The notes below the pieces were generated by a model, which was not told the origin of the DNA, searched no databases, and worked only from the letters and a program-made list of their open reading frames with translations. This document shows positions 3,199 through 34,042 of a stretch of 64,000 nt of DNA, in pieces. The DNA comes from Anaerolineaceae bacterium (GTDB taxonomy: Bacteria; Chloroflexota; Anaerolineae; Anaerolineales; Anaerolineaceae): the NCBI GenBank assembly GCA_029975475.1, contig JARKPB010000011.1, positions 1-64,000 on the forward strand. Direction: 5' to 3'. How positions within the stretch are numbered: position 1 is the stretch's first letter; every line of letters begins with the position of its first letter. A program made the translations under genes and the position numbers.

Positions 3199-3247
3199 GA
3201 TGTAGAGTGCTGCATCTGGGACTATACCGAGAAAGAGGATTGTAGAG

Positions 3248-3529: not shown

Positions 3530-3532
3530 GCC

Positions 3533-3877: not shown

Positions 3878-3894
3878 GGGAACTAGGAGTCAAT

Positions 3895-4575: not shown

Positions 4576-4626
4576 ATCTGCTGAGCCAGAAATTACTGCT
4601 CAGGTAAACCAGAAGAGGTAGCTGCT

Positions 4627-5055
4627 ATGTTGATGCCAAAACGTGTCAAGTGGCGCAAGCAACAGCGCGGTCGCATGAAGGGCAAAGCCCTGCGCGGCGC
4701 GGAAATGATCTACGGCGAATATGGCCTGCAGGCCACAGAACCCGGATGGGTGACTGCCCGTCAGATCGAAGCCGCCCGGCGTACGATCGTGCGTGCCATG
4801 CGGCGTCATGGAAAAGTATGGATCCGCATTTTCCCGGACCATCCCTATACCCAGAAACCCCCCGAGACCCGCATGGGCAAGGGGAAGGGTAATGTGGAAT
4901 ACTGGGTTGCGGTTGTAAAACCCGGCCGCATCATCTTTGAAGTGGGCGGCCTGGATACCCCCGAAGCGGTGGCGTGCCTGCGCCAGGCGGCTTACAAGTT
5001 CTCCATCGGCACCAAGGTGATCGCCCGCCATGAGACTACAGGAGAGCAGTCATGA
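4627..5055 (+). CDS. rplP: 50S ribosomal protein L16
   Basis: 142 residues, starting [20 protein letters not shown]16 organises the A-site region of the 50S subunit; the motif [13 protein letters not shown] at about residues 83-95 is conserved. The stop overlaps the rpmC start in an ATGA arrangement, indicating coupled translation. It is spaced 51 bases from rpsC. Confidence 0.97.
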
Positions 5056-6277: not shown

Positions 6278-6820
6278 ATGAATCAATTACAAAAAAGGTA
6301 TCAGGAAGAAATTGTTCCCACTCTGGTGAAGTCGCTGAACCTGCAGAATAAAATGCAGGCGCCGGCCATCAAGAAAGTGGTGATCAATATCGGCCTTGGC
6401 GAGGCGATGGATGAGCCCAAACTGCTGGATGCTGCTTCCGCAGATCTGATGGCGATTACCGGGCAAAAACCCGTCATCACCAAGGCGCGCAAGAGCATTG
6501 CCAATTTCAAGCTGCGCGAAGGCCGCGCCATCGGCGTGATGGTCACCCTGCGCGGTGAAAAGATGTGGGCATTTCTCGATCGGTTGATGAACATTGTGCT
6601 GCCTCGCGTTCGCGACTTTCGCGGCGTATCGGCAGAGGCCTTCGACGGCCGTGGAAACTACACCCTGGGTCTGCGCGAACAGGTGATCTTCCCGGAGATC
6701 GAATTTGATAAGGTTGATAAAGTCCGCGGTATGGAAATAACCATCGTTACTTCTGCTCCGTCGGATGACCAGTCCGCGCTGCTGCTGCAGCTGCTCGGCA
6801 TGCCTTTCAGGAAGGGATAG
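6278..6820 (+). CDS. rplE: 50S ribosomal protein L5
   Basis: 180 residues. The conserved blocks [28 protein letters not shown] and [10 protein letters not shown] identify L5, which binds 5S rRNA in the central protuberance. It is followed one base after the stop by rpsN. Confidence 0.97.
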
Positions 6821-6821
6821 T

Positions 6822-7004
6822 ATGGCAAAGAAATGCATGATGTATCGTGAACAACGCCGCAAATATGCGGTGCAGGTGCGCAACCGCTGCCGAATCTGTG
6901 GGCGCCCGCGTGGTTATATGCGCCGCTTTGATGTTTGCCGCATCTGTTTCCGTGAGCTCGCTCTGGCAGGACAGATCCCCGGCGTAACCAAGGCATCCTG
7001 GTAA
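6822..7004 (+). CDS. rpsN: 30S ribosomal protein S14, zinc-binding type Z
   Basis: 60 residues from the ATG at 6822, the short zinc form of S14. The zinc site is [20 protein letters not shown] (two CxxC pairs). The start is fixed by AGGAAGG at 6809-6815 and by family length; an in-frame ATG at 6765 lies in rplE. Only this zinc form is present in the window, so a zinc-free paralogue, if any, is elsewhere. Confidence 0.96.
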
Positions 7005-7026
7005 CGCCAGACCGGAGGTAGGAAGC

Positions 7027-7440
7027 ATGAGTGTTAATGATCCGATCGCAGATATGTTGACCCGCATTCGTAACGGCGTCCTGGTGGGATTGTCCGTGGT
7101 TGCGATGCCCAATTCCAGTATCAAGACCGAGATAGCCCGGATTTTGAAGGAAGAAGGCTTTATCGAAGGGTATGAAGAAGCGGAAGGCGACAAGCCCACC
7201 CAGAAAGTGCTGCGCATCCGCCTCAAATATGTCGGCGAACGCCGCCAGCGGCGCCCGGTGATTACCGGCATTGAACGCGTCAGCCGGCCCGGCCGCCGGG
7301 TTTATACCCGCAAAGAAGACATCCCCTGGGTTCTTTCCGGGATGGGTGTTGCGATCCTTTCGACCCCGAAAGGCGTCATGACCGGCGCACGCGCCCGCCA
7401 GATTGGCGTTGGCGGTGAAATTCTGTGCAAGGTCTGGTAA
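7027..7440 (+). CDS. rpsH: 30S ribosomal protein S8
   Basis: 137 residues, starting MSVNDPIADMLTRIRNGV and ending GVGGEILCKVW, both characteristic of S8. In E. coli S8 represses the spc operon; nothing in this sequence shows a matching site. The Shine-Dalgarno CGGAGGTAGGA precedes it at 7014-7024. Confidence 0.97.
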   Translation: MSVNDPIADMLTRIRNGVLVGLSVVAMPNSSIKTEIARILKEEGFIEGYEEAEGDKPTQKVLRIRLKYVGERRQRRPVITGIERVSRPGRRVYTRKEDIPWVLSGMGVAILSTPKGVMTGARARQIGVGGEILCKVW

Positions 7441-7465
7441 GGGGCCGAACAAGGAGGTATGTAAA

Positions 7466-8023
7466 GTGTCTCGTATTGGCCGATTACCCGTAACAATTCC
7501 TGCCGGTGTGCAGGTTACCGTGGATGGCTTGAACGTCTCGGTCAAGGGGCCCAAAGGTGAATTAAAACGCACCTTCCATCCCCTGGTTGAGATCAAGCAC
7601 GAAGAAAACGCGATCACCGTCAGCGCGGACCAGACCAACCCGGTCGCGCACGCGCTGCATGGCACCACCCGCGCTGTGATTCAGAATATGGTCACCGGTG
7701 TTTCCGCCGGCTTCACCCGCGTTCTGGAAATCAACGGCGTCGGTTACCGCGCTGAAATGGACGGCAATAAACTGATGATGTATGTCGGTTACTCTCACCC
7801 GGTTGTCTTTGACCCGCCCGCCGGTATTTCCTACGAAGTGGATGCAAAGACCCGCCAGGTGAAAGTGAACGGCGCCGACAAAGAACTGGTCGGCCAGATT
7901 GCCGCAGATATTCGCAAAATTCGTCCTCCTGAACCTTACCTGGGCAAAGGTATCAAATACCTGGAAGAGACCATTCGCCGCAAGGCAGGTAAAGCCGGTA
8001 AGGGTAAGGGCGGCAAGAAGTAG
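7466..8023 (+). CDS. rplF: 50S ribosomal protein L6
   Basis: 185 residues from a GTG start at 7466 (SRIGRLPVTIPAGV follows). AAGGAGG at 7451-7457 sits 8 bases upstream and decides the start; the in-frame ATG at 7403 is inside rpsH. The two L6 domains and the C-terminal signature KIRPPEPYLGKGIKY are intact. L6 lies near the GTPase-associated centre. The C-terminal tail is Lys/Gly-rich. Confidence 0.96.
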   Translation: MSRIGRLPVTIPAGVQVTVDGLNVSVKGPKGELKRTFHPLVEIKHEENAITVSADQTNPVAHALHGTTRAVIQNMVTGVSAGFTRVLEINGVGYRAEMDGNKLMMYVGYSHPVVFDPPAGISYEVDAKTRQVKVNGADKELVGQIAADIRKIRPPEPYLGKGIKYLEETIRRKAGKAGKGKGGKK

Positions 8024-8033
8024 GTGAGCGATT

Positions 8034-8399
8034 ATGGCTAAACTGACTCGAAAAGAACAACGCATCCGCAGGCATCAGCGCGTTCGCAAGAACCTCGCCG
8101 GGACCCCCGAACGCCCGCGCCTGAACGTGTTTCGGAGTGTTTCCGATATTTATGCTCAGGTGATCGATGACCAGGCCGGCCATACACTGGTCGCTGCTTC
8201 CAGCATTGATCACGACCTGCGCGCCAAGACGTCTGGGGTTAACAAAACCGAACAGGCGAAACTGGTCGGCAAACTGGTGGCTGAACGCGCCCTGGAAAAG
8301 GGCGTGACCAAAGTGGTGTTTGACCGCGGCGGTTTCCGCTATATCGGCCGCGTCAAAGCCCTGGCAGATGCTGCCCGAGAAGCAGGCCTGGAGTTCTAG
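8034..8399 (+). CDS. rplR: 50S ribosomal protein L18
   Basis: 121 residues. The conserved blocks [18 protein letters not shown] and [20 protein letters not shown] identify L18, a 5S rRNA-binding protein. It sits 10 bases after rplF and 29 before rpsE. Confidence 0.96.
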
Positions 8400-8428
8400 G
8401 AAACTGAGGAAGGAAACAGGACCAGACT

Positions 8429-8962
8429 ATGGATAAGATGGAATACCAACCGTTGGAACAGATTTACGACGAGCGCGTGGTCGAGATTGCCCGCGTGGCA
8501 AAAGTGGTCAAGGGCGGCCGCCGTTTCCAGTTCCGCGTTACCGTAGTTGCGGGCGATAACAATGGCAAGGTCGGACTTGGTATTGGCAAGGCGAACGCCG
8601 TGCCGGATGCCATGCGCAAGGCCACCGAACAGGCCCACAAGAATATGCGCCAGTTCTCGCTGGCCGGCACGACCATTCCCCACGAGGTTACCTCGCAGGT
8701 GGGCGGAGCGGTGGTGCTGCTCAAGCCGGCTTCAGCCGGCACGGGCGTTATCGCCGGCGGCGGCGTTCGCGCCGTGCTCGAAGCTGCCGGTGTGCGCGAT
8801 ATCCTGACCAAATCACTGGGCAGCGCCAATGTTCTGAACGTGGTGAAAGCCACTTTTGAAGCCCTGGGTAATTTGAAATCCGTTGAAGAAGAAGCAGCCC
8901 GCCGCGGCAAACCCGCCAGCGAACTGATCCCCTTCTGGGAGCGGAGGAAGAAGAATGGCTAA
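8429..8962 (+). CDS. rpsE: 30S ribosomal protein S5
   Basis: 177 residues. The double-stranded RNA-binding N-domain ([18 protein letters not shown]) and the C-domain ([17 protein letters not shown]) are complete. S5 contributes to decoding fidelity at the mRNA entry. Its 3' end overlaps rpmD by 8 bases. Confidence 0.97.
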
Positions 8963-21018: not shown

Positions 21019-22248
21019 ATGAAAGAAATCGCCAGTGACCTCAGCGGAATTGCCCGGTTGACGATTCGGTGCCACGCCGACCTGCATGCGGAAGGTACCG
21101 ATCAAAACGCCTTGACCGGCAGAATCAGCGGGCGGGACGCCGTCACGTTAACCCGAAAAGAGGATACCCTCATCCTGGTCTGCCTGGACGATGCCTGGCT
21201 GCGGATTCCGCGCCAGGTGACCCTGGAAATCGAGCGTGTCGGCGGGGATGCTTACCTGCAAAATCTACCCGCATTAAAATTGTTGGGCCGTGTCGGCGGC
21301 GATTTGGCTGCTCAGGGTTTTGAGATGCTTTCGGTTCAGCATATTGGCGGGGACTGCCTGCTGCGCGATATCACTTCTGTGCTTACCGTTGGCAGCATTG
21401 GCGGGGACTTGCTGGTTGATCAGGTTGGCCTGGATTGTCTGGTCGAATCGGTTGGCGGCGACGCGGAGTTTCAATCCATTGGCGGTGAATTGACAGCCCT
21501 GGCAGGCGGCGATATAACCCTGCGGCAGGTTAAGATGTCCGCGAAAAACATCACCCTGAAAGCCGGCGGGGATGTGGAACTTTACCTGCCAGAAGCGGTA
21601 GACGCGGCTCTGGAACTGACGTCCCGCGGCCAGGATATTGCAATTGACTTTGCGGACCAGAAGCAAGCATACGAACAGGCTTTCGTTCAAATCACGCGCG
21701 GCAGCGGCGCGGCCAGGATCCAGGTCGTGGCAGGGGGTGATATCCTTGTCCGCGATCATGACTGGCAGTTCAGGAACATGGACAGAAAATTTGAACCTTT
21801 TGAGCGGGACTGGAACCGCGTGTTTTCGGATCTCGTCCCCGAACGCATTCTGGCCGGCCTGGAATCGGATAAAATTGATAAGATCGCCCGCCTGGCTGCC
21901 GATCGGGCTGAGGAGGCCATCCGCCGTGCGAACGAACGAGTCCAGGCCGCCATGAGGCGCATCGAGGTTGAACTATCCGAATCCGCGGCGGATTTTTCAC
22001 CACCTGCCGAGCCAACCCCGCCGACACCGCCAACCCCGCCAACACCGCCAACACCGCCAACCCCGCCAACACCGCCATCGCCGCCAACTCCGCCGGCGCC
22101 TGCCGCATCCAATCTCTCCGCAGCTGGCTCAACCCCCAACAAGAGCGCGGAGGCTGAAAAAAACCTGGTGCTGCAAATGTTAAAAGAGAGAAAAATCAGT
22201 GTAGAAGAAGCGGAGCGGCTTTTAGACGCGCTCGACATTTCAGAATAA
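21019..22248 (+). CDS. YvlB/LiaX-like protein: GGD beta-repeat domain, Pro-Thr linker and C-terminal helical motif
   Basis: 409 residues, no signal peptide or membrane segment. Residues about 75-240 contain eight GGD and one GGE motif spaced roughly 15-25 residues apart (VGGD, IGGD, AGGD), the pattern of DUF4097-type beta-helix repeats. Next come a charged helical region (about 270-325), a PTP tandem repeat (about 332-361) and a C-terminal helix pair LKERKISVEEAERLLDAL. That last motif is the short helical motif found in Bacillus YvlB, where it is N-terminal. YvlB and LiaX belong to cell-envelope stress responses; a similar role here is inference. It is likely cotranscribed with the next gene, 22 bases away. 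Confidence 0.7.
   Translation: MKEIASDLSGIARLTIRCHADLHAEGTDQNALTGRISGRDAVTLTRKEDTLILVCLDDAWLRIPRQVTLEIERVGGDAYLQNLPALKLLGRVGGDLAAQGFEMLSVQHIGGDCLLRDITSVLTVGSIGGDLLVDQVGLDCLVESVGGDAEFQSIGGELTALAGGDITLRQVKMSAKNITLKAGGDVELYLPEAVDAALELTSRGQDIAIDFADQKQAYEQAFVQITRGSGAARIQVVAGGDILVRDHDWQFRNMDRKFEPFERDWNRVFSDLVPERILAGLESDKIDKIARLAADRAEEAIRRANERVQAAMRRIEVELSESAADFSPPAEPTPPTPPTPPTPPTPPTPPTPPSPPTPPAPAASNLSAAGSTPNKSAEAEKNLVLQMLKERKISVEEAERLLDALDISE
22012..22101 (+). repeat. 9-bp minisatellite inside the YvlB-like gene
   Basis: About ten head-to-tail 9-base units of the form CCAACMCCG (22012-22101), drifting at the 3' end (CCATCGCCG, CCAACTCCG, CCGGCGCCT). It encodes a repeated PTP linker. The units keep the reading frame, so copy-number change would only alter linker length. 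Confidence 0.9.
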
Positions 22249-22270
22249 ACCCAACTCCGGGAAGTGAAGC

Positions 22271-22933
22271 ATGGATATCAACCTGAAACGGCGTGAAATT
22301 CTCAAGCAGGTGGAACGTGGTGAAATCGCAATTGAAGACGCTTCAGTATTACTGGCTGCGCTGGAAAATTCGTCCCAGCTGGCCCTTCCGCAGGATAATC
22401 CCGGTGAATCCGCACCTGATCAGGACCGTTCTGGTGAAGAACCTCAGGAGGCGCAGCCTGAAAAAGCCAGCGCTCCCGGCTGCTGGCGGGTGGTCTGGTT
22501 TTTACCCCTGGTAACCGGCGTGATTCTGACCTGTTTTAGCGCCTGGTGGATGGCTCAGGGCTGGCAAAAACAGCCCTTTGGCTGGGCTTTCTGGCTTTCC
22601 TGGCTGCCATTTCTAATCGGGATCGCTCTGACGGTGGTCGGCTGGATGCTGGAGACAGCCCCCTGGCTCATCCTGGATGTGCGGTCTAAAGCAAAAGCGG
22701 GCGAACACCGTTCCGGATTTATCCTCGCCATGCCGGCGCCCTTTGGCCTCCTTTCCTGGTTGCTTCGCACCTTCCCGGCGCTGGTTCCTGAAAATGTCAA
22801 ACAACAGGGGATCACTGAAATGATGGAAGCGGTCAACGAGTCCTTAAAGAACGGCGACCCGGTGATGATTGACGTCAATGACGAGGATGACGGCGAAAAG
22901 GAACGGGTCCTTATATACATTGGCAAGCGCTGA
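22271..22933 (+). CDS. Membrane protein with N-terminal YvlB-type helical motif
   Basis: 220 residues. The N-terminus KRREILKQVERGEIAIEDAS followed by VLLAALENS repeats the motif at the C-terminus of the upstream protein (LKERKISVEEAERLLDAL). After a hydrophilic linker come two hydrophobic segments (about 75-95 and 105-130), then a cytoplasmic-looking C-terminal domain ending in an acidic stretch and a short beta strand (ERVLIYIGKR). It forms a two-gene operon with the GGD-repeat gene. The function is unknown; the shared motif suggests the two products interact or share a partner. Confidence 0.65.
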   Translation: MDINLKRREILKQVERGEIAIEDASVLLAALENSSQLALPQDNPGESAPDQDRSGEEPQEAQPEKASAPGCWRVVWFLPLVTGVILTCFSAWWMAQGWQKQPFGWAFWLSWLPFLIGIALTVVGWMLETAPWLILDVRSKAKAGEHRSGFILAMPAPFGLLSWLLRTFPALVPENVKQQGITEMMEAVNESLKNGDPVMIDVNDEDDGEKERVLIYIGKR

Positions 22934-22948
22934 CTTTGACGCTTACTG

Positions 22949-22978
22949 GCCCCGCTGCGATCAGCGGGGCTTTTTTCT
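22949..22978 (+). terminator. Intrinsic terminator after the YvlB-like operon
   Basis: GCCCCGCTG (22949-22957), loop CGAT, CAGCGGGGC (22962-22970), then TTTTTTCTTC. It is a textbook rho-independent terminator 15 bases after the stop codon. Confidence 0.92.
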
Positions 22979-22983
22979 TCCAG

Positions 22984-22996
22984 TATAATCACAGGC
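22984..22996 (+). promoter_or_regulatory. -10 box 7 bases before the next start codon (leaderless promoter)
   Basis: TATAAT at 22984-22989 is followed after 7 bases by ATG at 22997, so transcription should begin at or next to the start codon. The -35 position falls inside the preceding terminator and is poor. There is no Shine-Dalgarno before the ATG. Confidence 0.55.
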
Positions 22997-23569
22997 ATGA
23001 ACAGATTGTTTCTTCGCCGCCTGATCGCGGTGGCGGCGGCCTTGAGCGCGCTGGCGTTGATCGCGCTGACTCTGCAGCCGCCAGTTTATAAGATGGTCAG
23101 GCAGTCAGTGGCACCATCCGCGGGGTTTGAAGGCGAAATGCAGTTAATCATCCCGCAGGTGGTGATGTTTCAGTCGCAGGCCAGCCTGCAGGTGCAGTTA
23201 ACGGCCGGGGCTGATGCGGAAGGGCGGATGCTGCGCGCGCGGTTAGATTTTCCTGCCGCCAGTCTGCGCTCGCCCGGAGAGGTGCTGGCTCCATTAACGG
23301 TGGATCAGCCCGTTCATCTCCAGTGGCAGCTGGTCCCGGCCGAGCGCGGGGAACTGCGGGGTACCCTCTGGCTTTTTGTTCAATCCACCGATGGGGCAGA
23401 GTCCAGCGCTTTTTTATCCCTACCGGTGAATATCCGCGTAATGGACTTTCTGGGTTTTCCTCCTTCGGTCCTGCGCTGGGCAGCCGCCGTTGGCCTGTTT
23501 TTTGCCGCCCTATCAAGCGGATTAGCAGGATGGATAAAGAGAAAAGTACAGCTCCATCCGGAAACATGA
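22997..23569 (+). CDS. Small membrane protein of unknown function
   Basis: 190 residues. There is an N-terminal hydrophobic segment (about 9-26, LIAVAAALSALALIALTL), an extracytoplasmic beta-rich domain (about 40-150), and a C-terminal membrane segment (about 158-180) followed by a short basic tail. This is an anchored-domain layout with both ends in the cytoplasm. I do not recognise a family. It is expressed alone, between a terminator and the nuo promoter, probably from a leaderless transcript. Confidence 0.6.
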   Translation: MNRLFLRRLIAVAAALSALALIALTLQPPVYKMVRQSVAPSAGFEGEMQLIIPQVVMFQSQASLQVQLTAGADAEGRMLRARLDFPAASLRSPGEVLAPLTVDQPVHLQWQLVPAERGELRGTLWLFVQSTDGAESSAFLSLPVNIRVMDFLGFPPSVLRWAAAVGLFFAALSSGLAGWIKRKVQLHPET

Positions 23570-23664: not shown

Positions 23665-24021
23665 ATGCCATCCGAATGGATCTATATCGGGATTTTTAGC
23701 CTGATAGCCCTGGCGCTGCCGGCCGCGGCCATTCTTATGGCCGGGGTCCTGGGCCCGAAAAAGCCGAACCCCATTAAGAATTCCACCTATGAATGCGGGA
23801 TTGAAACCACCGGTGAGACCTGGGTGCAGTTCCGCCCGCAGTATTACATCTTTGGATTGTTATTCCTGATTTTTGATGTCGAGACGGTCTTTCTGTTTCC
23901 CTGGGCGGTTGGGTATCGGGTGCTTCCGCTTTTCGCGGTGATTGAAGGAATCGTATTTATCCTCATCTTACTGGGCGGTCTGCTGTATGCCTGGCGCGTG
24001 GGCGCGTTGAGCTGGCAGTAA
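23665..24021 (+). CDS. nuoA: NADH-quinone oxidoreductase subunit A
   Basis: 118 residues, three membrane segments. The conserved stretch KNSTYECGIETTGE after TM1 and FLIFDVETVFLFPWAV in TM2 are diagnostic of NuoA/NdhC. It links the membrane arm to the quinone site of complex I. It is the first gene of nuoA-H-J-K-L-M-M-N; nuoB, C, D and I, which usually follow nuoA, are not here. Confidence 0.95.
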   Translation: MPSEWIYIGIFSLIALALPAAAILMAGVLGPKKPNPIKNSTYECGIETTGETWVQFRPQYYIFGLLFLIFDVETVFLFPWAVGYRVLPLFAVIEGIVFILILLGGLLYAWRVGALSWQ

Positions 24022-24040: not shown

Positions 24041-25270
24041 ATGACTTTCTGGCAGGACCCTTACGCTGCTGCAGTCGAATGGCTGCGTAATTTACTGATT
24101 GGCTGGGGATTGACGGTTGAGGCTGCTCAGTTGATCCTCTACCTGGCGGGCGGGATTGTCCTGGCAGGCGGTTCACTGGCGCTGGTTATCTTCCTGATCT
24201 GGGCTGAACGGAAGATTATCGGGCGCGTGCAGGACCGCCTGGGGCCAAACCGGGTGGGCCCGTGGGGCATTTTTCAGACTTTCGCGGATATCCTCAAAAT
24301 TTTCACCAAAGAATATATCACCCCGAACGGGGTAGACCGCGTGCCGTACAATCTGGCGCCGGTGCTGGCTGTGGCAGCGGTCATTATGATCTGGGCGGTG
24401 GTTCCATTCACAGTGACCCTTTACGGCGCGGATCTCAGTGTCGGGCTGATTTACGTTATGGCCGTGGGCGCGATCGGTGAAATGGGTATTGTCATGGCCG
24501 GGTGGGGCTCAAACAATAAATTTGCGCTTCTCGGCGCCTTCCGGGCAGTGGCGCAGATGGTTTCCTATGAAATTCCGATGGTGATTGCCCTGCTCATCCC
24601 GGTGATGATGGCCGGGTCGCTTTCTCTGGGCGCCATTACCGCCAGCCAGGCGGTCTGGAATATCCTGATCGCGCCGCTGGCGGCACTGATCTTTTTCATA
24701 ACATCCGTTGCTGAAGTTGGCCGCGCTCCGTTTGACCTGGTGGAAGCGGAATCGGAACTGGTGGCGGGGTTTAATATCGAATACTCCGGCTTAAAATTCG
24801 GCTTCTTCTTCGTCGGCGATTTTCTGCACGCCTTTACCATCGCCATGCTCTTCACGGTGTTCTTTCTGGGCGGGTGGCGCGGACCGTTTGTGGACCAGGT
24901 GCCCATCCTTGGCGCGGTTTACTTTTTTATCAAAACCAGCCTGGTCTATCTGGTCAATATCCTGATGCGGGCAGCCCTGCCGCGCTTTCGCATTGACCAG
25001 ATGATGGATTTTAACTGGAAATATCTGACCCCCCTTTCTTTGTCCGTTCTGGTGGTTACCGCGCTGGCGGATAAACTGACGCTGGGTTTAAGCGCCTGGG
25101 TGCGGATCCCGGTCTTTTTAGGCCTGAACGGCCTGCTCTTTCTGGCAGCCAGTGTGATGGTTAACCGCCGGGCAATCAACCGCCCGCGCGCGGAGGTGGT
25201 CAGCCGCCCCCGGCCGCTGGCTCGCCCGGAAACGGCGGTCCAACCTGAAACGAATGGAGGCGTCTCGTGA
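24041..25270 (+). CDS. nuoH: NADH-quinone oxidoreductase subunit H
   Basis: 409 residues, somewhat longer than the E. coli protein because of N- and C-terminal extensions. The cytoplasmic loops that form the quinone chamber are intact (IGRVQDRLGPNRVGPWG; AEVGRAPFDLVEAESELVAG). The hydrophilic tail (about 380-409) is Arg/Pro-rich. It overlaps the nuoJ start by 4 bases. Confidence 0.95.
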   Translation: MTFWQDPYAAAVEWLRNLLIGWGLTVEAAQLILYLAGGIVLAGGSLALVIFLIWAERKIIGRVQDRLGPNRVGPWGIFQTFADILKIFTKEYITPNGVDRVPYNLAPVLAVAAVIMIWAVVPFTVTLYGADLSVGLIYVMAVGAIGEMGIVMAGWGSNNKFALLGAFRAVAQMVSYEIPMVIALLIPVMMAGSLSLGAITASQAVWNILIAPLAALIFFITSVAEVGRAPFDLVEAESELVAGFNIEYSGLKFGFFFVGDFLHAFTIAMLFTVFFLGGWRGPFVDQVPILGAVYFFIKTSLVYLVNILMRAALPRFRIDQMMDFNWKYLTPLSLSVLVVTALADKLTLGLSAWVRIPVFLGLNGLLFLAASVMVNRRAINRPRAEVVSRPRPLARPETAVQPETNGGVS

Positions 25271-25782
25271 GCACGGCGCAGATTCTATTTCTTATTTTTT
25301 CCGCCGTGGTGGTGGCTGCGGCGGTGATGGTTGTCCTGTCGCGCCGCATCATGCGCGCGGCCCTCTGGCTGGTGCTGGCTCTATTTGGCGTGGCTTTGAT
25401 CTTTGCCCTCCTGGACGCCAGTTTCTTCGCGGTCGTTCAGGTTTTGGTATATGTAGGCGCGATTGCCACCCTGTTAATCTTCGCCATTATGCTGACCCGG
25501 GGTGTGATGGACGACAGCAAAGCGCAGTTAAACCGCGGCTGGCCGTTTGCGCTGCTGGTCTGTCTCGGATTGTTTGGCGGGCTGGTCTATATCCTCTCGC
25601 AATGGAACCGGTTCAATTCAGCCGCTCCGGCGCTGCCGCAAGATGCCTATGACCTGACGCTCTTCGGCCTTGCTCTGACATCGCCGGATGGCTATCTGGT
25701 CGCGTTTGAAGCCGCTTCGGTCTTGCTGCTGGCTGCCATGGTCGGGGCAATCTACCTCGCGCTGGAAAAGAGGGGGAATTAA
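25267..25782 (+). CDS. nuoJ: NADH-quinone oxidoreductase subunit J
   Basis: 171 residues, with five hydrophobic segments. The TM3 signature (FAVVQVLVYVGAIATLLIFA), which contains the pi-bulge region of complex I, is clear. It starts with GTG at 25267, overlapping the nuoH stop, with GGAGG at 25257-25261 just upstream. Confidence 0.93.
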   Translation: MSTAQILFLIFSAVVVAAAVMVVLSRRIMRAALWLVLALFGVALIFALLDASFFAVVQVLVYVGAIATLLIFAIMLTRGVMDDSKAQLNRGWPFALLVCLGLFGGLVYILSQWNRFNSAAPALPQDAYDLTLFGLALTSPDGYLVAFEAASVLLLAAMVGAIYLALEKRGN

Positions 25783-25784
25783 GC

Positions 25785-26099
25785 ATGATCCCGCTTTCCT
25801 GGTATCTGATCCTGGCCGCGCTGCTCTTCTGTATCGGCCTGTTCGGCGTCTTGGCTCGCAAGAATTCGGTGGCGGTCCTGATGAGTGTTGAGTTGATGCT
25901 CAACGCGGTCAACATCAACCTGCTGGCTTTCTGGCGGTATCTGTATCTAACCAGCACCGCCTATAACGGCTTTGTCTTTGTGGTGGTATTGTTTGCCGTG
26001 GCGGCAGCCGAGACCGCGGTTGGCCTGGCGATTATCATCTCCGCTTACCGTAGCCGAAAGACAGTGGCGGCGGAAGACTTTACTGCCCTGCAGGGTTGA
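25785..26099 (+). CDS. nuoK: NADH-quinone oxidoreductase subunit K
   Basis: 104 residues, three membrane segments. The two glutamates needed for proton transfer are present: Glu36 in SVELMLNAVN and Glu72 in AAAETAVGLA. It starts 2 bases after nuoJ. A normal-length NuoK. Confidence 0.95.
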   Translation: MIPLSWYLILAALLFCIGLFGVLARKNSVAVLMSVELMLNAVNINLLAFWRYLYLTSTAYNGFVFVVVLFAVAAAETAVGLAIIISAYRSRKTVAAEDFTALQG

Positions 26100-26109
26100 G
26101 CGAGGCCGC

Positions 26110-28248
26110 ATGAATCCTGAATCATATTTTTGGCTTATTCCCCTGCCTCCATTGGCGGCTTTCTTTGGCATCTTGCTGCTCACCTGGCGAAAACGCACCC
26201 TCAGCCACTGGCTGGCACTGGCTGGAGCCGGGCTGGCTTTTCTGGGGTCGCTGGCGGTCCTCTGGCGCGCGTTTTCGATCGAGCATCTTGCTGAGCATCC
26301 ATTTGGCGTTTCCATCGACTGGCTGCCGGCGGGCAGCAGCGTGATGCGCATCGGGGCGGCTCTTGATCCGCTTGGGGCGGTCAGCCTGGCTTTTGTGGCT
26401 GTAACAGTACTGATGATCTTCATTTACTCGATCGGGTATCACAATCACGGACAGCCGGAAGGGAAAGATGATCTCCCCGGATTGCCGCCCCGCGGGATGG
26501 AGATGATGGATGAACACGGCCACACCGTCCGCGCGGCGACGATCGAGCCAATGTACAGCCGCTTCTTCGCGTTGATCAGCCTCTTCGCCTTTGCCATGTT
26601 CCTGCTGGTGTTGAGCGACAATCTGCTGACCCTGTATATTGGCTGGGAGATTATGGGCCTGTGCTCGTATCTCTTGATTGGCTTCTGGTACGGCCGGCCT
26701 TCTGCACGCGACGCCGCGGTAAAGGCTTTCATGACCACCCGTATCGGGGATGCTTTCATGCTGCTTGGACTCGCGGCGCTTTACAGCCTGACCGGGACCT
26801 TCCGCTTCAGCGAGATTCTGGGCAGTCCCCAAACGCTGGAAATCTTGAGCACCTCGGCTTCCGGCGTGCTGGGTCTTTCCTGGGCCGGGTTGATCGGCAT
26901 CTTGCTGTTGATGGGCACGGTGGGCAAATCCGCGCAGTTCCCGCTGCACGTCTGGCTTCCGGATGCCATGGAAGGTCCCACGCCAGTATCAGCCATGATC
27001 CATGCCGCCACGATGGTATCCGCCGGTGTGTATCTGGCGCTGCGTTTCTTCCCGCTGATCGCGGCCGGGTGGCAGCCAGGCGGCCCTCTGACCGCGCCCA
27101 TGCTTTTTATCGGGGCGGTTGGCGCGTTTACGGCCCTGTTTGCCGCGTTGATTGCCCTCGGGCAGGACGACATCAAGCGCGTCCTGGCTTACTCGACCAT
27201 CTCGCAGCTCGGGTTTATGCTGGCTGCCCTGGGCATTGGTGCTTATGTTGCCGCGGCCTTTCACCTGGTAACGCATGCGTTTTTCAAAGCGCTGCTCTTC
27301 CTCGGCTCCGGTTCGGTGATCCACGGCATGGAACACGGCGCAGCTCACAGCGGAGAACATCTGGACCCGCAGAATATGAAATATATGGGCGGGCTGGCGT
27401 GGAAGATGCCCTTAACCTTCGCCGCCTTCCTGGCTGGTGGACTTTCGCTGGCGGGTTTCCCGCTGCTCACTTCCGGCTTCTGGTCAAAAGACGAAATCCT
27501 CAAATCCGCTTACGGACTGGCGCCGGTCGTGTTTTATACGCTCGCTTTCGCTGCCCTGCTGACCGCATTTTACACCGCCCGCCAGCTGACCCTGGTCTTT
27601 CTCGGCCAGCCGCGCAGCCGGGCCGCTGAAAAGGCGCACGAATCCCGTCCGGTGATGACCTGGCCGCTGCTGATCCTGGCGGTTTTCGCCCTGATCGGCG
27701 GTCTGGTGGTAAAGCCCTTTGAGCATTTTGTGGCCGGGATGCTGCCGCACGAACTGCTGGTTGAACTGCCAGAGTCGGCGGTGCCGGTCGCGGTCTCGGT
27801 TGCGGTCGCCCTGGGGGGGCTGCTGCTGGGTTGGCTGGTTTACCGCCACGCTGCGAAAGGACAGCCCGATCCGCTCGAAAGCGCGCTGGGGCCGCTGTTC
27901 CGCGCTTTTCATCGTAAATTCTGGGTGGATGAAGCCTATCAGGCGGTCATCCTGCGCCCCGCGGCCTGGCTGGCAGAGACGGCGGTTGCGCGCTGGATCG
28001 ATCAGGTGATTCTGGACGGCATCCTGCACGCGGTCGGACGTTTTACCCTCTGGCTGGGAGAATTGCTGCGCAGCAAAGTTGACCGCAAGGTGTTTAGCGG
28101 CGGCGGCGACGCGCTGGCAGCCGGCGCTCAACTGGCCGGCAGTCAGCTTTCAGGCCTGCAGCGCGGCCGGGTGCAGGAGTACATGGCGGGCGGGATCGCG
28201 GTGCTGGTTCTGGCTGGTTTAATGGTTCTGTTCTTCCTAAACCTTTAG
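26110..28248 (+). CDS. nuoL: NADH-quinone oxidoreductase subunit L
   Basis: 712 residues from the ATG at 26110 (MNPESYFWLIPLPP); in-frame upstream ATGs lie inside nuoK. Proton-channel residues are present: Glu in YIGWEIMGLCSYLL and Lys in GTVGKSAQFPLHVWLPDA. It is about 100 residues longer than E. coli NuoL, partly from a hydrophilic insert at about residues 115-150 (HNHGQPEGKDDLPGLPPRG) and partly from the C-terminal part that carries the lateral helix. It forms the distal antiporter-like pump of complex I. Confidence 0.93.
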   Translation: MNPESYFWLIPLPPLAAFFGILLLTWRKRTLSHWLALAGAGLAFLGSLAVLWRAFSIEHLAEHPFGVSIDWLPAGSSVMRIGAALDPLGAVSLAFVAVTVLMIFIYSIGYHNHGQPEGKDDLPGLPPRGMEMMDEHGHTVRAATIEPMYSRFFALISLFAFAMFLLVLSDNLLTLYIGWEIMGLCSYLLIGFWYGRPSARDAAVKAFMTTRIGDAFMLLGLAALYSLTGTFRFSEILGSPQTLEILSTSASGVLGLSWAGLIGILLLMGTVGKSAQFPLHVWLPDAMEGPTPVSAMIHAATMVSAGVYLALRFFPLIAAGWQPGGPLTAPMLFIGAVGAFTALFAALIALGQDDIKRVLAYSTISQLGFMLAALGIGAYVAAAFHLVTHAFFKALLFLGSGSVIHGMEHGAAHSGEHLDPQNMKYMGGLAWKMPLTFAAFLAGGLSLAGFPLLTSGFWSKDEILKSAYGLAPVVFYTLAFAALLTAFYTARQLTLVFLGQPRSRAAEKAHESRPVMTWPLLILAVFALIGGLVVKPFEHFVAGMLPHELLVELPESAVPVAVSVAVALGGLLLGWLVYRHAAKGQPDPLESALGPLFRAFHRKFWVDEAYQAVILRPAAWLAETAVARWIDQVILDGILHAVGRFTLWLGELLRSKVDRKVFSGGGDALAAGAQLAGSQLSGLQRGRVQEYMAGGIAVLVLAGLMVLFFLNL

Positions 28249-28264: not shown

Positions 28265-29800
28265 ATGCTCAACTTCCTGGAAGCCCATTCTCTATCCATC
28301 CTTCTTTTTACCCCTGCGCTGGCAGCCCTGGCGGTCATGCTGCTGCCTGCGCGGCGAATAAAACTGCTGCGCTGGTTTGCCCTGGCTGCAAGTCTGCTGC
28401 CGCTCGGGCTGAGCGTGTACCTGTGGCTGCGGTTTGATCCCGCCCTCGATCCGCGCCTGGCTTTTCAGTTTGAAGAGTGGCTGCCCTGGTTCCCGGCGAT
28501 TGGCAGTTCCTACCATCTGGGACTGGACGGCCTGTCCTTGCCGATGGTCGCGCTCACCTGTTTGTTAACCCCGCTGGCGATCCTCGCTTCATTTAAAATA
28601 GAAACTCATCTGCGGGGTTATCTCGCCCTCTTCTTGCTGCTGGAAACGGGCATTCTGGGCGTCTTTATGGCGCTCGACCTGCTGCTGTTCTTTGTGTTCT
28701 GGGAAATTGGTCTGGTGCCGATGTATTTTCTCATCAACCAGTGGGGCGGAGCGAACCGCAATTACGCTTCCCTAAAATTCATCATTTTTACCATGGGCGG
28801 CTCGCTTGGATTGCTGCTGGCGATCCAGTTGATCGGTCTGAACGCCGGTTCCTTCGATATGCTCAACCTGTTCCGCAATTTCGGCAGCCTCGATTTGAGC
28901 GTTTTTGGGTTAACCAGCGCTGCGGTGAAAACAATCGCCTTCTGGGCTTTTGTGATCGCCTTCGCGGTCAAAGTGCCAGTCTGGCCCTTTCACACCTGGC
29001 TGCCTGATGCTCACACCGAAGCCCCAACCGCTGGATCCATGATCCTGGCGGGTGTTCTGCTAAAACTCGGGGCATACGGTTTTCTACGGTTGGTCCTGCC
29101 GCTTTTCCCGCAAGAATCAGCGCGGTTTGCTCCGGCGCTGGCTGCGCTGGCGGCGGCGGCGATCATCTTTGGCGCGCTGGCCGCTGCCGGACAAAAAGAT
29201 CTGAAGAAACTGGTCGCTTACTCCAGCGTCAACCACATGGGGTTCGTGATGCTGGGTGTGGCGGCGGTCGCTTCTGCGGTGGGCGGTGATGCCGCGGCTG
29301 TTCAATCTTCGCGCATCGCTGCCAGCGGCGCGGTCTTGCAGATGGTCAACCACGGTTTGAGTTCAGCCGGGATGTTCTTCCTGGTCGGGGTGTTGTACGA
29401 CCGGGCGCATACCCGTCAGCTGGATGAGTTTGGCGGATTATACGCCCTTCTTCCCGCTTACGGCACCGTCTTCATTTTTGTTTCAATGGCTTCGCTTGGT
29501 CTGCCGGGATTAAATGGGTTTATCAGCGAGCTGCTGGTGGTGGTTGGCGCCTGGCCGCTGTTAAGCGCTTACGTCGCCGCGGCCATGATCGGACTGATTT
29601 TCACCGGTACGTATATCCTCAAAGGCATTCGCCAGGTGCTTCACGGTCCGCTCAATCTGCGCTGGCGAGGCGTCCTCACGGAAATGAGCGCGCGTGAGTG
29701 GGCGGTGATTTTGCCGCTGATGGCGTTGATGCTCCTGCTGGGCATCTGGCCGTCCTGGCTGCTGGATCTGATCAACCGGGCGGTTATGTTCTGGTTCTAA
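28265..29800 (+). CDS. nuoM: NADH-quinone oxidoreductase subunit M, first copy
   Basis: 511 residues, about 14 membrane segments. All proton-path residues expected from E. coli NuoM are present: Glu147 (FFVFWEIGLVPMYF), Lys236 (FAVKVPVWPFHTWLPDAH), Lys267 (LLKLGAY) and the TM12 glutamate in GLNGFISELL. It is the canonical copy; a second, divergent NuoM gene follows 10 bases later. Confidence 0.93.
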   Translation: MLNFLEAHSLSILLFTPALAALAVMLLPARRIKLLRWFALAASLLPLGLSVYLWLRFDPALDPRLAFQFEEWLPWFPAIGSSYHLGLDGLSLPMVALTCLLTPLAILASFKIETHLRGYLALFLLLETGILGVFMALDLLLFFVFWEIGLVPMYFLINQWGGANRNYASLKFIIFTMGGSLGLLLAIQLIGLNAGSFDMLNLFRNFGSLDLSVFGLTSAAVKTIAFWAFVIAFAVKVPVWPFHTWLPDAHTEAPTAGSMILAGVLLKLGAYGFLRLVLPLFPQESARFAPALAALAAAAIIFGALAAAGQKDLKKLVAYSSVNHMGFVMLGVAAVASAVGGDAAAVQSSRIAASGAVLQMVNHGLSSAGMFFLVGVLYDRAHTRQLDEFGGLYALLPAYGTVFIFVSMASLGLPGLNGFISELLVVVGAWPLLSAYVAAAMIGLIFTGTYILKGIRQVLHGPLNLRWRGVLTEMSAREWAVILPLMALMLLLGIWPSWLLDLINRAVMFWF

Positions 29801-29810
29801 GAGGTGGCGG

Positions 29811-31283
29811 ATGCAGTTTCCATACCTTAGCGTACTGATCTTTACCCCGCTTGCGGCAGCGGTCATCCTGCTGCTGCTGCCGAACCGTCAGGCGCGCCTG
29901 ATTCGCGCCATTGCCCTGACGGCTTCCGCGCTGGTACTGGGATTATCGGCCGCGTTGTTCTTTATCTCAAGTCCGGTGGTGGACGGCTACCGTTTTATCG
30001 AGAAAATTGACTGGCTGCCTGAACTGGGAATATCGTATCACGTGGGTGTGGATGGGTTTAGCCTGCCGCTGCTGCTGCTGGCCGGGCTGGTGGCGTTCAG
30101 CGGGGTGCTGGTCTCCTGGAATGTGCAGGACCGACCGCGGGAGTTCTTTTCTTTCTTTATGTTTTTGGTGGCCAGTGTGCTGGGCGTCTTCAGTTCGCTG
30201 GATCTTTTTCAGCTGTTCTTTTTCTTTGAACTCGCGGTTTTTCCCAAATACTTGATGATCGTTATGTGGGGATCGCCTCAAACCCGCGAATACGGCGGCA
30301 TGAAACTGACTCTTTATCTGTTTTTGGGTTCGGTCGTGGCGCTGGTGGGCGTCTTTGCCCTCTACTTCGGCAGCGGCTTAAACACCTTTGACATGCTGGC
30401 GTTGGAAAAGGCCGGGCTGCCGTTGGCGTTTCAACAGATCTGGTTCCCGGTTATCTTTATCGGTTTTGCCGTGCTGGCGGGTATTTTCCCGTTTTATTCC
30501 TGGGCGCCGGATGGTCATGTGGCTGCCCCGACGGCGGTGTCCATGCTGCTCGCCGGGGTGGAAATGAAGGTGGGCGCTTTCGCGGCTTTGCGGATTGGGA
30601 TTGAATTATTGCCGCAGGGGGCGCAGCACTGGGCCTGGTTGATTTTGCTGCTCGGGACAATAAACGTGGTCTACGGCGCGCTGCTGGCGATGGCGCAAAA
30701 AGACCTGAAATACGTCATCGGGTACAGCTCGGTTTCCCACATGGGGCTGGTCTTGATCGGTTTCGCCGCCCTGAATCAACAGGGTTTGCTGGGAGCCGGT
30801 TTACAAATGTTTTCCCACGGCGTGATGACAGCTCTCTTCTTTGCGGTGGTCGGCATGGTGTACGACCGCACGCATACGCGTGACATCGGACAGCTCGGAG
30901 GTCTGGCGCGCTTTATGCCGCTGGCCGCCTTCGGCTTCATTGTTTCCGGTCTGGTCTCGATGGGTATGCCGGGTTTCTCCGGCTTTGTGGCTGAGATCCC
31001 GATTTATCTGGGCGCTTGGCGCGTGGCGCCCTGGGTGGCGGTGGTGAGCGCGGTTTCTATTGTGATTACCGCGGCTTACATCCTGCTGGTTGTGCGGCGG
31101 GTGTTTTTTGGCGAAGTGCCGCAATCTCTGAGCGCGTTGGAAGATATCCATACCAGGGATAAACTGGTGGTCTTGATGCTCAGTCTGGTGATGATCGCGG
31201 TCGGTTTGCTGCCTGGCTTGATCAGCGCTGGCATATCAGACGGCGTTAACCGCATCCTGCAGCTTCTGGGAGGTTCATTATGA
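29811..31283 (+). CDS. Second NuoM-like subunit, lacking the TM7 lysine
   Basis: 490 residues, homologous along its whole length to the first NuoM. Glu140 (FFFFELAVFPKYL), Lys253 (EMKVGAF) and the TM12 glutamate (GFSGFVAEIP) are kept. The TM7 lysine is replaced: FAVLAGIFPFYSWAPDGH aligns without gaps to FAVKVPVWPFHTWLPDAH of the first copy, giving Leu222 (codon CTG at 30474-30476). In E. coli that lysine (234) is needed for pumping. Complexes with two NuoM are known; this copy may be a modified or partly silent pump. It overlaps nuoN by 4 bases. Confidence 0.88.
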   Translation: MQFPYLSVLIFTPLAAAVILLLLPNRQARLIRAIALTASALVLGLSAALFFISSPVVDGYRFIEKIDWLPELGISYHVGVDGFSLPLLLLAGLVAFSGVLVSWNVQDRPREFFSFFMFLVASVLGVFSSLDLFQLFFFFELAVFPKYLMIVMWGSPQTREYGGMKLTLYLFLGSVVALVGVFALYFGSGLNTFDMLALEKAGLPLAFQQIWFPVIFIGFAVLAGIFPFYSWAPDGHVAAPTAVSMLLAGVEMKVGAFAALRIGIELLPQGAQHWAWLILLLGTINVVYGALLAMAQKDLKYVIGYSSVSHMGLVLIGFAALNQQGLLGAGLQMFSHGVMTALFFAVVGMVYDRTHTRDIGQLGGLARFMPLAAFGFIVSGLVSMGMPGFSGFVAEIPIYLGAWRVAPWVAVVSAVSIVITAAYILLVVRRVFFGEVPQSLSALEDIHTRDKLVVLMLSLVMIAVGLLPGLISAGISDGVNRILQLLGGSL

Positions 31284-32737
31284 CGGGCAGTTTCCCCGCC
31301 GCCATGCTGTTGAAGTCGCTGCCAGAAATCAGTCTGGTGATTCTGGCCGGGCTGGTGCTGCTGCTCTCGCTGGTCTGGAAAAAACGGCCTCCCCAGGCTC
31401 TGACCTGGATTACCATCGCCGGCCTGATGCTCTGCCTGCTGCTGGCTTTGTTGTTTGCCTTGCCGGTTAAAGGCCCTTACCTGATCTGGGGCGGACTGCT
31501 CAAAATTGATGTGCTCAGCTTTCTGTTCCGCATGATCTTTCTGACCGGGGCAGCGCTGACCGTCTTGATCAGCGTCGAGCGCCAACCCTCGCAAGGGCAG
31601 GGGGAATACCTGGCGCTGCTGATCACCAGCGTATTTGGCATGTGTCTCATGGCTGCCTCGGCGGATATCCTCATGCTCTATCTGGCGATTGAAATTACCG
31701 CTATGCCGCTATTTATTTTGGCCGCCTTCCAATTCCGCCAGAAAAAATCCGCTGAAGCCGGTCTAAAATATTTTCTCTACGGCGCCATGACCTCGACGGT
31801 GATGGTCTTCGGGTTTTCTCTGCTGTTTGGGATCAGCGGTCAGACCGGCTATTCCGCTATCGCTGCCGCGTTGGAACCTGACCGGCTGCCGGTCAGCCTG
31901 ACAGCCGGGATTTTCATGTTGGTTCTGGTCGGGTTTCTTTTTAAGGTTTCAGCAGCGCCGTTTCACTTCTGGGCGCCTGACGTTTATGAAGGCGCGCCAA
32001 CCCCGATCGCCGGTTTCCTTTCCACAGCTTCAAAAGCAGCCGGTTTCGCCGCCTTGCTGCGCATTCTGCAGGAGGTTTTTCGCGCCTCGCCCGAATTGCG
32101 CTTCGGGCTGCTGGCTGCCGCGGCTGTGGCCAGCATGCTGATCGGCAACTTCCTCGCCCTGCGGCAGAAAAACCTGAAGCGGCTGCTGGCATATTCCAGC
32201 ATCGCACAGGCCGGATACATCCTGGTTGGCGCGGCGGTTGGCACTCCGCTGGGCGCCAGCGGGGCGATCTATTACCTCATCGCCTATCTGGTCACCAACC
32301 TGGCCGCTTTTGGCGCCGTCGCGGTGGTTAGCAGTAATACCGGCAGCGATCAAATTGCTGCTTTTAGCGGTTTAAACCGCAGAAATGCTGCGCTGGCGCT
32401 GGTTCTGGGCGCTGCACTGCTGTCTCTGGGCGGGGTTCCTGTCTTCGCCGGTTTCTTTGGCAAGTTCCTGGTGTTTGCCTCGGCGGTCCAGGCCGGGGCG
32501 GTCTGGCTGGCTGTGATCGGTGTCTTGAACGCTGTGGTAGGCCTTTATTACTACCTGAACCTGCTGAAAGTGATGTATCTGGACCCGGTTCCTGAGGGAA
32601 GCGGTCCGCTAACCGTTGTGTTTCCCTGGAAAGCTGCTCTGTTGGTGTGCGCGGCAGGCATCCTTGTCCTCGGATTTATCTACCGGCCGTGGTATCACTG
32701 GGCGGATCTGGCTGCCCAGATGCTATTGCTACATTGA
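31280..32737 (+). CDS. nuoN: NADH-quinone oxidoreductase subunit N
   Basis: 485 residues, about 14 membrane segments. Channel residues are visible: Glu in LYLAIEITAMPLFIL and Lys in FLFKVSAAPFHFWAPDVYEG. It is the antiporter-like subunit nearest NuoK. It overlaps the second nuoM gene by an ATGA. The promoter of the ATP synthase genes overlaps its stop codon. Confidence 0.93.
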   Translation: MTGSFPAAMLLKSLPEISLVILAGLVLLLSLVWKKRPPQALTWITIAGLMLCLLLALLFALPVKGPYLIWGGLLKIDVLSFLFRMIFLTGAALTVLISVERQPSQGQGEYLALLITSVFGMCLMAASADILMLYLAIEITAMPLFILAAFQFRQKKSAEAGLKYFLYGAMTSTVMVFGFSLLFGISGQTGYSAIAAALEPDRLPVSLTAGIFMLVLVGFLFKVSAAPFHFWAPDVYEGAPTPIAGFLSTASKAAGFAALLRILQEVFRASPELRFGLLAAAAVASMLIGNFLALRQKNLKRLLAYSSIAQAGYILVGAAVGTPLGASGAIYYLIAYLVTNLAAFGAVAVVSSNTGSDQIAAFSGLNRRNAALALVLGAALLSLGGVPVFAGFFGKFLVFASAVQAGAVWLAVIGVLNAVVGLYYYLNLLKVMYLDPVPEGSGPLTVVFPWKAALLVCAAGILVLGFIYRPWYHWADLAAQMLLLH

Positions 32738-32769: not shown

Positions 32770-33087
32770 ATGGACTCATCCCAGGGAAAGAATCCAGACC
32801 GCCGCCAGCAAGCCAGGAATATCACGCTGGCGGTTATGGCTGGATCAGTGGGGTGTGTTACGCTGGTCATAGTCCTGGCGGCCGTGGGCGGCGGGCTGCT
32901 GCTCGATCGGCAGTTCAACACCAAACCTGCGTTTACCCTGGGCCTCTTGCTGGTCAGTATTCCGGTCTCACTTGTGGCTATGTTTGCCATCGTTCGCGCG
33001 GCTGTGAGCCGCATCAAAGCGCAGACAGATGCCTCAAAATCAGACTCTACGGAGGGTAGCGATCTTGGAAGAAACCAAACCGCGTAA
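32770..33087 (+). CDS. AtpZ/AtpI-family protein of the F0F1 ATP synthase locus
   Basis: 105 residues with two hydrophobic segments (about 20-40 and 52-75). The segment GGGLLLDRQFNTKPAFTLG is the hairpin typical of AtpZ/AtpI-type proteins encoded just before atpB. In other bacteria these help assemble the c-ring or supply Mg/Ca. The start is the ATG at 32770 rather than upstream in-frame codons inside nuoN. It has no Shine-Dalgarno, consistent with leaderless translation. It overlaps the chosen atpB start by 23 bases. Confidence 0.75.
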   Translation: MDSSQGKNPDRRQQARNITLAVMAGSVGCVTLVIVLAAVGGGLLLDRQFNTKPAFTLGLLLVSIPVSLVAMFAIVRAAVSRIKAQTDASKSDSTEGSDLGRNQTA

Positions 33088-34042
33088 ATGGCGATGGGGC
33101 TTCAAGCGCTGGATCGTCCTGGTGCTGGTGATTATTGGAATTTTTGCTGCCAGGGCTTTTCCGCCCATCACTCCGCACATTCAGGTTGCCCCTGAAAATG
33201 TCAGCCGCCAGCCCTTGTTCAGCCTGCCGGTGATTGGCGATTTTTATCTGACCAATACGCTGGTGGCGATGTTGATCGTGGATGTGATCATCCTGGCGCT
33301 GGCGCTGGGCGTGCGCGCCACGCTGCGGAAAGGCACTCTGCTGCCCGGCGGGATCACCGGCCTGGTCGAGTTCCTGATTGAGTTTATTTACAATTTGACG
33401 GAATCGACCGCCGGTAAATACGCCAAAAAGATCTTTCCCTTTTTCGCCACAATTATGATCCTGGTTCTGGTCTCGAATCTGATGGAATTGATCCCCGGTG
33501 TAGATTCCATCGGCCGCTTTGAGGAATATTCCCACGGTTATCAGGTCGCAGAACTGATCCCGAACAGCGTCGCCTATATCTACGGACAGGAACTGGATCA
33601 CGGAGGCGAGATTATTGTTCCCTATGTGCGGGTGCTGTCGACGGATTTGAATTTTACCGCTGCCCTGGCGTTGATTTCTGTCTTTTTCACCCAGGTTATC
33701 GGCGTTCAGGCGCAGGGTTTCCGCTACTTCTCAAAATTCTTCAATACGACCACATTTTTCAAAAAACCCATTTTTGGAGCGATTGACTGGGCGGTCAGCA
33801 TTCTTGAGCTGATCTCCGAATTCTCCAAGATCCTCTCTTTTGCTTTCCGGTTGTTTGGCAATATCTTTGCTGGAGCAGTTCTGCTGTTTCTGGTGGGCTC
33901 GCTCATCCCGGTATTTGCGCAAAGCGCGATCCTGTTATTTGAGTTCTTCATCGGTCTGATCCAGGCTTTCGTCTTCGGCATGTTGACCATGGTGTTCATG
34001 TCTCAGGCGACTCAGGGTCACGGCGGCGAGGAACACCACTAA
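33065..34042 (+). CDS. atpB: ATP synthase subunit a
   Basis: 325 residues from a TTG start at 33065, chosen because GGAGGG (33051-33056) lies 8 bases upstream; an ATG at 33029 has no such site. Membrane segments include the essential arginine in LSFAFRLFGNIFAGAVLLF. Subunit a forms the proton half-channels beside the c-ring. It has a longer periplasmic loop than E. coli (about 140-185, including YIYGQELDHGGEIIVPYV). Confidence 0.92.
   Translation: MEETKPRKWRWGFKRWIVLVLVIIGIFAARAFPPITPHIQVAPENVSRQPLFSLPVIGDFYLTNTLVAMLIVDVIILALALGVRATLRKGTLLPGGITGLVEFLIEFIYNLTESTAGKYAKKIFPFFATIMILVLVSNLMELIPGVDSIGRFEEYSHGYQVAELIPNSVAYIYGQELDHGGEIIVPYVRVLSTDLNFTAALALISVFFTQVIGVQAQGFRYFSKFFNTTTFFKKPIFGAIDWAVSILELISEFSKILSFAFRLFGNIFAGAVLLFLVGSLIPVFAQSAILLFEFFIGLIQAFVFGMLTMVFMSQATQGHGGEEHH

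Follow-up and report, generated by a model that had tools for sequence, protein, structure and literature searches.

A NuoM lineage without the TM7 lysine in Chloroflexota complex I and the possible relocation of its basic residue

How complex I pumps protons is still debated, and most models take the pair formed by a glutamate in TM5 and a lysine in TM7 as the central gate. The TM7 lysine has been reported to be essential in NuoM, NuoL and NuoN of E. coli, where mutation of Lys234 leads to loss of function (PMC3046159). The question of what becomes of such a pump when the lysine is missing is raised by a locus of an Anaerolineaceae bacterium (contig JARKPB010000011.1), of which a stretch of 64,000 nucleotides, called the window here, has been analysed. 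An initial annotation made from the letters of the sequence had noticed that the second of two NuoM proteins carries Leu222 in place of this lysine, and had concluded that this copy should pump differently or not at all.

According to an NCBIfam profile search the window holds, all on the forward strand, an operon of the order nuoA-H-J-K-L-M1-M2-N, followed by the gene for ATP synthase subunit a. The best matches of nuoA (23665..24021, 2.8e-36) and nuoJ (25267..25782, 2.2e-29) to their family models stay under the curated cut-offs, nuoH (24041..25270) reaches 331.2 bits with NF004741 (cut-off 305), and nuoK (25785..26099, best NuoK model 5.4e-36) passes the cut-off of NF004320. The nuoL gene (26110..28248, 712 aa; NF005141, 573.5 bits, cut-off 556) is followed by the canonical nuoM1 (28265..29800; TIGR01972, 527.3 bits), whose TM7 Lys236 is encoded at 28970-28972, by nuoM2 (29811..31283, 490 aa), which is devoid of the TM7 lysine, and by nuoN (31280..32737; TIGR01770, 377.7 bits, cut-off 332.6). 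Together these genes make up the membrane arm (A-H-J-K-L-M1-M2-N) of a complex I with four antiporter-like subunits. About 290 bases past nuoN lies the subunit a gene (33029-34042), by which this two-NuoM arm adjoins the start of an F-type ATP synthase. Directly upstream of nuoA, three open reading frames (21019-23569) are bordered on their other side by a tryptophanase-type gene; no NCBIfam family above cut-off has been found for them, only one weak LiaG-like match.

This arrangement corresponds to the 2M complex I described by Chadwick et al. (2018), as relayed in parts of PMC7117926, PMC9040806, PMC6606698 and PMC8004040, with which it shares the gene order nuoL-M1-M2-N and a longer lateral helix of NuoL. 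Two nuoM genes stand between nuoL and nuoN, NuoL carries an insertion of ∼26 residues, and nuoBCDI are set apart with nuoC and nuoD fused, as reported for 2M complexes of Chloroflexota; in the genome of the window nuoB, the fused nuoCD and nuoI are adjacent on another contig (C18). The expectation of the initial annotation that the complex is of the two-NuoM kind is borne out. Among the loci of Anaerolineae and relatives none listed contradicts the order L-M1-M2-N, many of the contigs ending inside it. In the passages of the 2M literature that are available, M2 is treated as an ordinary extra pump and the TM7 lysine is not mentioned, whereas the M2 described here lacks it; a fifth proton per cycle has been put forward there as a hypothesis.

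Within 12 kb round nuoB-CD-I no nuoEFG have been found, and four NuoF-type matches occur in the same genome, three on C18 at ∼200–475 kb from nuoB-CD-I and one in a second nuo operon on contig C10; these could serve the two-NuoM complex. The C10 cluster is separate and runs from nuoB to nuoN, including nuoEFG and a NuoM with TM7 lysine (nuoA would fall at the edge of the stretch taken). Two more pairs of antiporter-like genes have been observed outside both operons, on contigs C3 (314383-318379) and C13 (116547-119211), the latter adjoining a 49-kDa-type subunit and possibly belonging to a hydrogenase-like or related complex.

M2 is a NuoM by its profile (TIGR01972, 448.9 bits against a cut-off of 263.8) and by its fold. 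An AlphaFold2 model (mean pLDDT 87.9, pTM 0.90), the confidence of which is modest in the block 161-170 around TM6 (pLDDT 64) and in residues 230-238 after TM7 (below 50), finds its best PDB match in 8qby_M (TM-score 0.93, 36% identity), and the NuoM/ND4 chains of the top rows reach TM-scores of 0.91–0.95. With canonical NuoM/ND4 from E. coli and Paracoccus M2 shares the fold, the TM5 glutamate, the TM8 lysine and the TM12 glutamate: Glu140 (30228..30230; E. coli Glu144), Lys253 (30567..30569; Lys265) and Glu395 (30993..30995; Glu407) are all kept, as the initial annotation had read them, and so are His310 (E. coli 322) and His336 (E. coli 348). In contrast, the TM7 lysine is lost. Leu222 (30474..30476, codon CTG) aligns with Lys236 of M1 and Lys234 of E. 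coli NuoM, which confirms the substitution first noticed, and a lysine stands in this column in all four of the PDB alignments listed (8qby_M of Paracoccus, 6hum_D of T. elongatus, 7aqw_M and 7ar7_M of Arabidopsis). Where E. coli NuoM has a histidine in TM7 (residue 241), M2 has Tyr229. Two charged residues of M2 are absent from canonical NuoM, namely Lys146 in TM5 (30246..30248; E. coli Met150) and the new acid Glu251 in TM8 (30561..30563; E. coli Leu263). With the TM5, TM8 and TM12 residues present and the TM7 lysine absent, M2 is therefore classed as a variant lineage of NuoM; proteins of this class are called K-less in the following, those that retain the lysine K-type.

The loss is a fixed property of the sampled M2 orthologues, a point on which the initial annotation had asked for an alignment. 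Site 222 is Leu in 102/110 and Thr in 8/110 of them and Lys in none, and the absence of the lysine is therefore beyond chance; a sequencing error or a misalignment as the cause of Leu222 is ruled out by the same counts. The TM7 site of NuoL is Lys in 35/35 sampled rows. Decay of a spare copy has been discarded as well: the mean pairwise identity of M2, 60.3%, is near the 63.4% of M1 (3000 pairs, 123 loci; M2 more alike in only 918/3000), so that M2 is about as constrained as M1.

A regular pattern emerges from the alignment of 308 NuoM rows from Chloroflexota and E. coli, 152 of which are devoid of the TM7 lysine. The rows are stop-to-stop frames of at least 380 aa, including those of partial contigs, with one copy of the window (L014) left out; they are not all independent genomes (L048 and L144, for instance, come from contigs of equal length, and L155/L199 are nearly identical), and sampling began from similarity to M2, which makes the collection something other than an unbiased census. 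Exactly one basic residue is found among the sites 146, 170, 222 and 247 (M2 numbering) in 308/308 rows, and no row has none or two. The base is Lys222 of TM7 in 156 rows, His247 of TM8 in 103, Lys146 of TM5 in 47 including the window, and His170 of TM6 in 2. In the window, position 247 is a leucine (30549..30551; E. coli Leu259). Lys146 occurs in all 39 rows with Glu251 and in all 8 rows with Thr222, and in none of the other 261. Glu251 alone has been dropped as a substitute, being acidic and missing from the Thr222 and His247 rows, while the base that the Glu251 and Thr222 rows share is Lys146. Lys146 lies six residues past Glu140 and is the candidate for the compensating lysine that the initial annotation had proposed to look for one turn away. 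The two His170 rows (L161 and L198, genomes G356 and G451) also carry Asp140 for Glu and Ala247.

As the four sites had first been found by looking, 250 helix-core columns, delimited by the helices of the AlphaFold2 model of M2, have been scanned for basic residues (Lys, Arg or His) gained or lost in a class-specific way, as a guard against a choice by eye. Six columns have been returned: the four sites, and columns 209 and 451, both close to the start of a helix and neither of them exclusive. Nearly every K-less row retains Glu140, His310 and Glu395, Lys253 is retained in 141/152, and the proline that follows the TM7 lysine site has become glycine in 137/152. In 11/308 rows the TM8 lysine is found at 252, the column of the NuoN TM8 lysine, and 253 is Ala or Asn; these are M2 proteins of three families (f5, f11 and f51; L127, L128, L130-L136), six of the 11 with Gly for His336.

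An indication of where the sites lie in space comes from the homologous subunit NuoL. By alignment, 146, 222 and 170 correspond to Ser150, Lys229 and Thr174 of E. coli NuoL, and 247 to Ile253 beside His254. Ser150, His254 and Lys229 have been described as one hydrogen-bonded cluster, in which His254, in its B conformation, forms a hydrogen bond to Ser150, with a network leading to Lys229 (PMC13358369). In NuoL a single cluster is thus bordered by three of the four sites, and the same is presumed for NuoM, in which 146, 170 and 247 would surround the TM5 glutamate if the alignment and the part of PMC13358369 considered here can be transferred. K-less NuoM resembles the histidine switch of NuoL and MrpA (E. 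coli NuoL His254) in having a TM8 histidine near the TM5–TM7 Glu–Lys pair. NuoL, however, keeps Lys229 besides His254, whereas in K-less NuoM the histidine stands one residue earlier, at 247, together with the TM8 lysine in most rows.

From the residues, their conservation, their mutual exclusivity and the tree described below, we infer, with some reservation but as the favoured reading, that a base moved to another helix stands in for the TM7 lysine and that M2 still relays protons. The base would come to lie close to the TM5 glutamate and serve in electrostatics and proton relay as the lysine does elsewhere, and the opening and closing of its interaction with Glu140 would still hand protons to Lys253 in TM8 and Glu395 in TM12. 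In M2 of the window, Lys146 would act next to Glu140, perhaps balanced by Glu251, with Lys253 and Glu395 next in the relay. If the subunits lie in the membrane in the order of their genes, M2 would sit between N and M1, and therefore would at least have to transmit the coupling signal to M1 and L; an inert M2 at that place would cut both off from the quinone site. Judged from sequence, the pump is probably rewired and not broken. Of the initial prediction, the part that such a copy might pump "not at all" is weakened by the substitute base in 152/152 K-less rows, which is no proof of pumping.

The history of the protein has been followed in a FastTree of 145 NuoM rows from which the key columns had been removed. 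A single change separates K-type from K-less proteins, and within the K-less clade (support 100) the 15 rows of single-NuoM loci separate from the 50 rows of M2, with all M1 elsewhere. A recent tandem duplication of M1 as the origin of M2 is rejected on this ground, since the two fall into different clades; the TM7 lysine is lost once on the tree, and K-less NuoM is an old lineage by this sequence phylogeny. An IQ-TREE analysis of 60 rows requires at least four changes: one from K222 to H247, one from H247 to K146 in each of two clades, and one from H247 to H170. A tree constrained to unite the two K146 clades is worse by 23.9 log units and is not rejected (AU p = 0.093); Lys146 has perhaps been gained twice.

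K-less NuoM is not tied to two-NuoM complexes, because the phylum-wide search has yielded 15 loci with three antiporter-like subunits (L-M-N) whose sole NuoM is K-less. A further NuoM-like match has been found in 16/16 genomes searched. Of these genomes, 15 have a single-NuoM locus of the K-less kind, and the second copy, fetched from 13 of the 15, is K-type throughout. In eight K-less single-NuoM loci of Chloroflexota, six with a complete nuoA-B-C-D-H-I-J-K-L-M-N and two (L205, L207) cut by contig ends, no nuoE, F or G have been found nearby. The best matches to M2 in a plasmid collection, at ∼42–45% identity, come from Phocaeicola massiliensis, Bacteroides finegoldii and Prevotella nigrescens, whose NuoM are K-less with His247; the other match read, from Pararhizobium, is K-type. 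The nuo genes of B. finegoldii and P. massiliensis reside on small circular "plasmid" records of 25.8 and 81.8 kb, respectively, perhaps assembly fragments. The three Bacteroidota proteins group with those of Chloroflexota in the K-less clade, which then counts 53 rows, has support 100 and includes no K222 row; their placement within it is weak (41). Bacteroides and Prevotella are reported to possess headless complexes of 11 subunits (PMC7002350, PMC6560451), with one NuoM only, whereas the window type has an added NuoM1.

The NuoL stretch with the lateral helix comprises 98 aa in the window (residues 601-698; 27910..28203) and 94–101 aa in 88/88 two-NuoM loci, 70 aa in 15/15 K-less single-NuoM loci, and 66 aa in E. 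coli. Among K-type single-NuoM loci it measures 66–71 aa in 29/32; the exceptions are L179 (18 aa, from a broken frame or the alignment), L180 (100 aa) and L197 (116 aa). L180 (NuoL 3024-4988) and L197 (NuoL 6612-8921) combine a single K-type NuoM with a stretch as long as that of the two-NuoM type, and L197 sits on a very long branch. L143 has a single NuoM, which is K-type. A longer helix with an extra antiporter-like subunit has been published for two-NuoM complexes (PMC9040806, PMC6606698), and the length in the window type fits the accommodation of a fourth such subunit. In the NuoL tree, K-less single-NuoM loci group with K-type single-NuoM loci (82), and two-NuoM loci stand outside in their own clade (100); the root of the NuoN tree is weak (73), and these two trees give no decision on an addition of M1 to a K-less complex. 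We hold only tentatively, and with less confidence than the relocation itself, that headless complex I of several Chloroflexota and of gut Bacteroidota has the K-less design as its sole NuoM, that the TM7 charge, usually regarded as fixed in every antiporter-like subunit, can be moved in working complexes (from TM7 to a TM8 histidine and on to a TM5 lysine, perhaps twice, or to a TM6 histidine), and that the four-pump complex of Anaerolineae and Chloroflexia arose from the K-less type by adding a canonical NuoM1, the "extra" pump being M1 and not M2.

Relocation draws its support from the one base in every row, the result of the scan, the NuoL equivalents of the sites, the constraint on M2, the 15 loci with K-less NuoM alone and a NuoL helix of normal length, and HycC. 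This antiporter-like subunit of the E. coli formate hydrogenlyase is K-less, has no substitute and belongs to a complex not shown to pump. Like M2, HycC has a leucine (Leu208) at the Lys234 site and retains Glu135 and Lys239 (PMC5061711, PMC9474812). It differs in having Ala141, Gly158 and Phe233 at the other three sites, where M2 has Lys146, in having Asn295 where M2 keeps His310, and in being the single antiporter-like subunit of a hydrogenase complex, whereas M2 is accompanied by K, J, H and A in a complete membrane arm. With Lys146 present, M2 is not of the HycC type, in which the TM7 leucine comes without any substitute base. The relocation is weakened by the position of His247 one residue off the switch histidine of NuoL, by the few changes on the tree, by the AU test on the two Lys146 gains, by the choice of the sites by looking, by the modest model confidence around TM6 and after TM7, by the reported loss of function of E. 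coli Lys234 mutants, by the lack of a phenotype of the B. fragilis nuo deletion taken up below, and by the 11 rows without Lys253.

The strongest competing explanation, which we regard as unlikely, is that M2 is a structural relay that transmits the coupling wave from N to M1 and moves no proton, so that four antiporter-like subunits would work with a stoichiometry of three. The reported essentiality of the TM7 lysine in E. coli favours it, and so does HycC, which has the same leucine and no evidence of pumping. An inert spacer, though, would not need basic substitutes, nor would one expect it to keep Glu140, His310, Glu395 and mostly Lys253, to evolve about as slowly as M1, and to serve as the only NuoM of 15 loci. 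It is quite improbable that constraint has been relaxed, in which case the loss of the lysine would reflect the small importance of headless complexes, and the pattern of bases a few inherited coincidences. The tree does contain only about four state changes, and deletion of nuo in B. fragilis gave no phenotype in the reported tests, NADH:quinone activity and mouse colonisation being unchanged (PMC7002350); as nuo is also poorly expressed in rich medium, these data do not show a function of the K-less complex. Against relaxation, every base lost at one site is paired with a base at another, the scan has returned only columns 209 and 451 besides, and the identity among M2 proteins is close to that of M1. 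Least probable of all is a passive conduit that feeds substrate protons and does not pump, as a cytoplasmic path through HycC to the E-channel has been proposed (PMC9474812): the TM7 stretches are alike (LLAGIIPLH in HycC, VLAGIFPFY in M2), but HycC is without substitutes and His310, M2 resides in a full membrane arm, and reports on HycC mutants conflict, 17–18 substitutions being without effect in PMC5061711 and E391A and D354A costing 45% as cited in PMC9474812.

Two-NuoM complexes, headless complexes and the leucine of HycC are already known. In the accessible passages of the literature searched, no report of K-less NuoM or of relocated bases has been found; the missing lysine may already have been noted in Chadwick 2018. 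If the relocation holds true, the conserved need would be a base in the cluster and not a lysine on TM7, which would provide a testable constraint on models of pumping. It would also matter for the fifth proton claimed for two-NuoM complexes, and for energy metabolism in Anaerolineae and common gut Bacteroidota.
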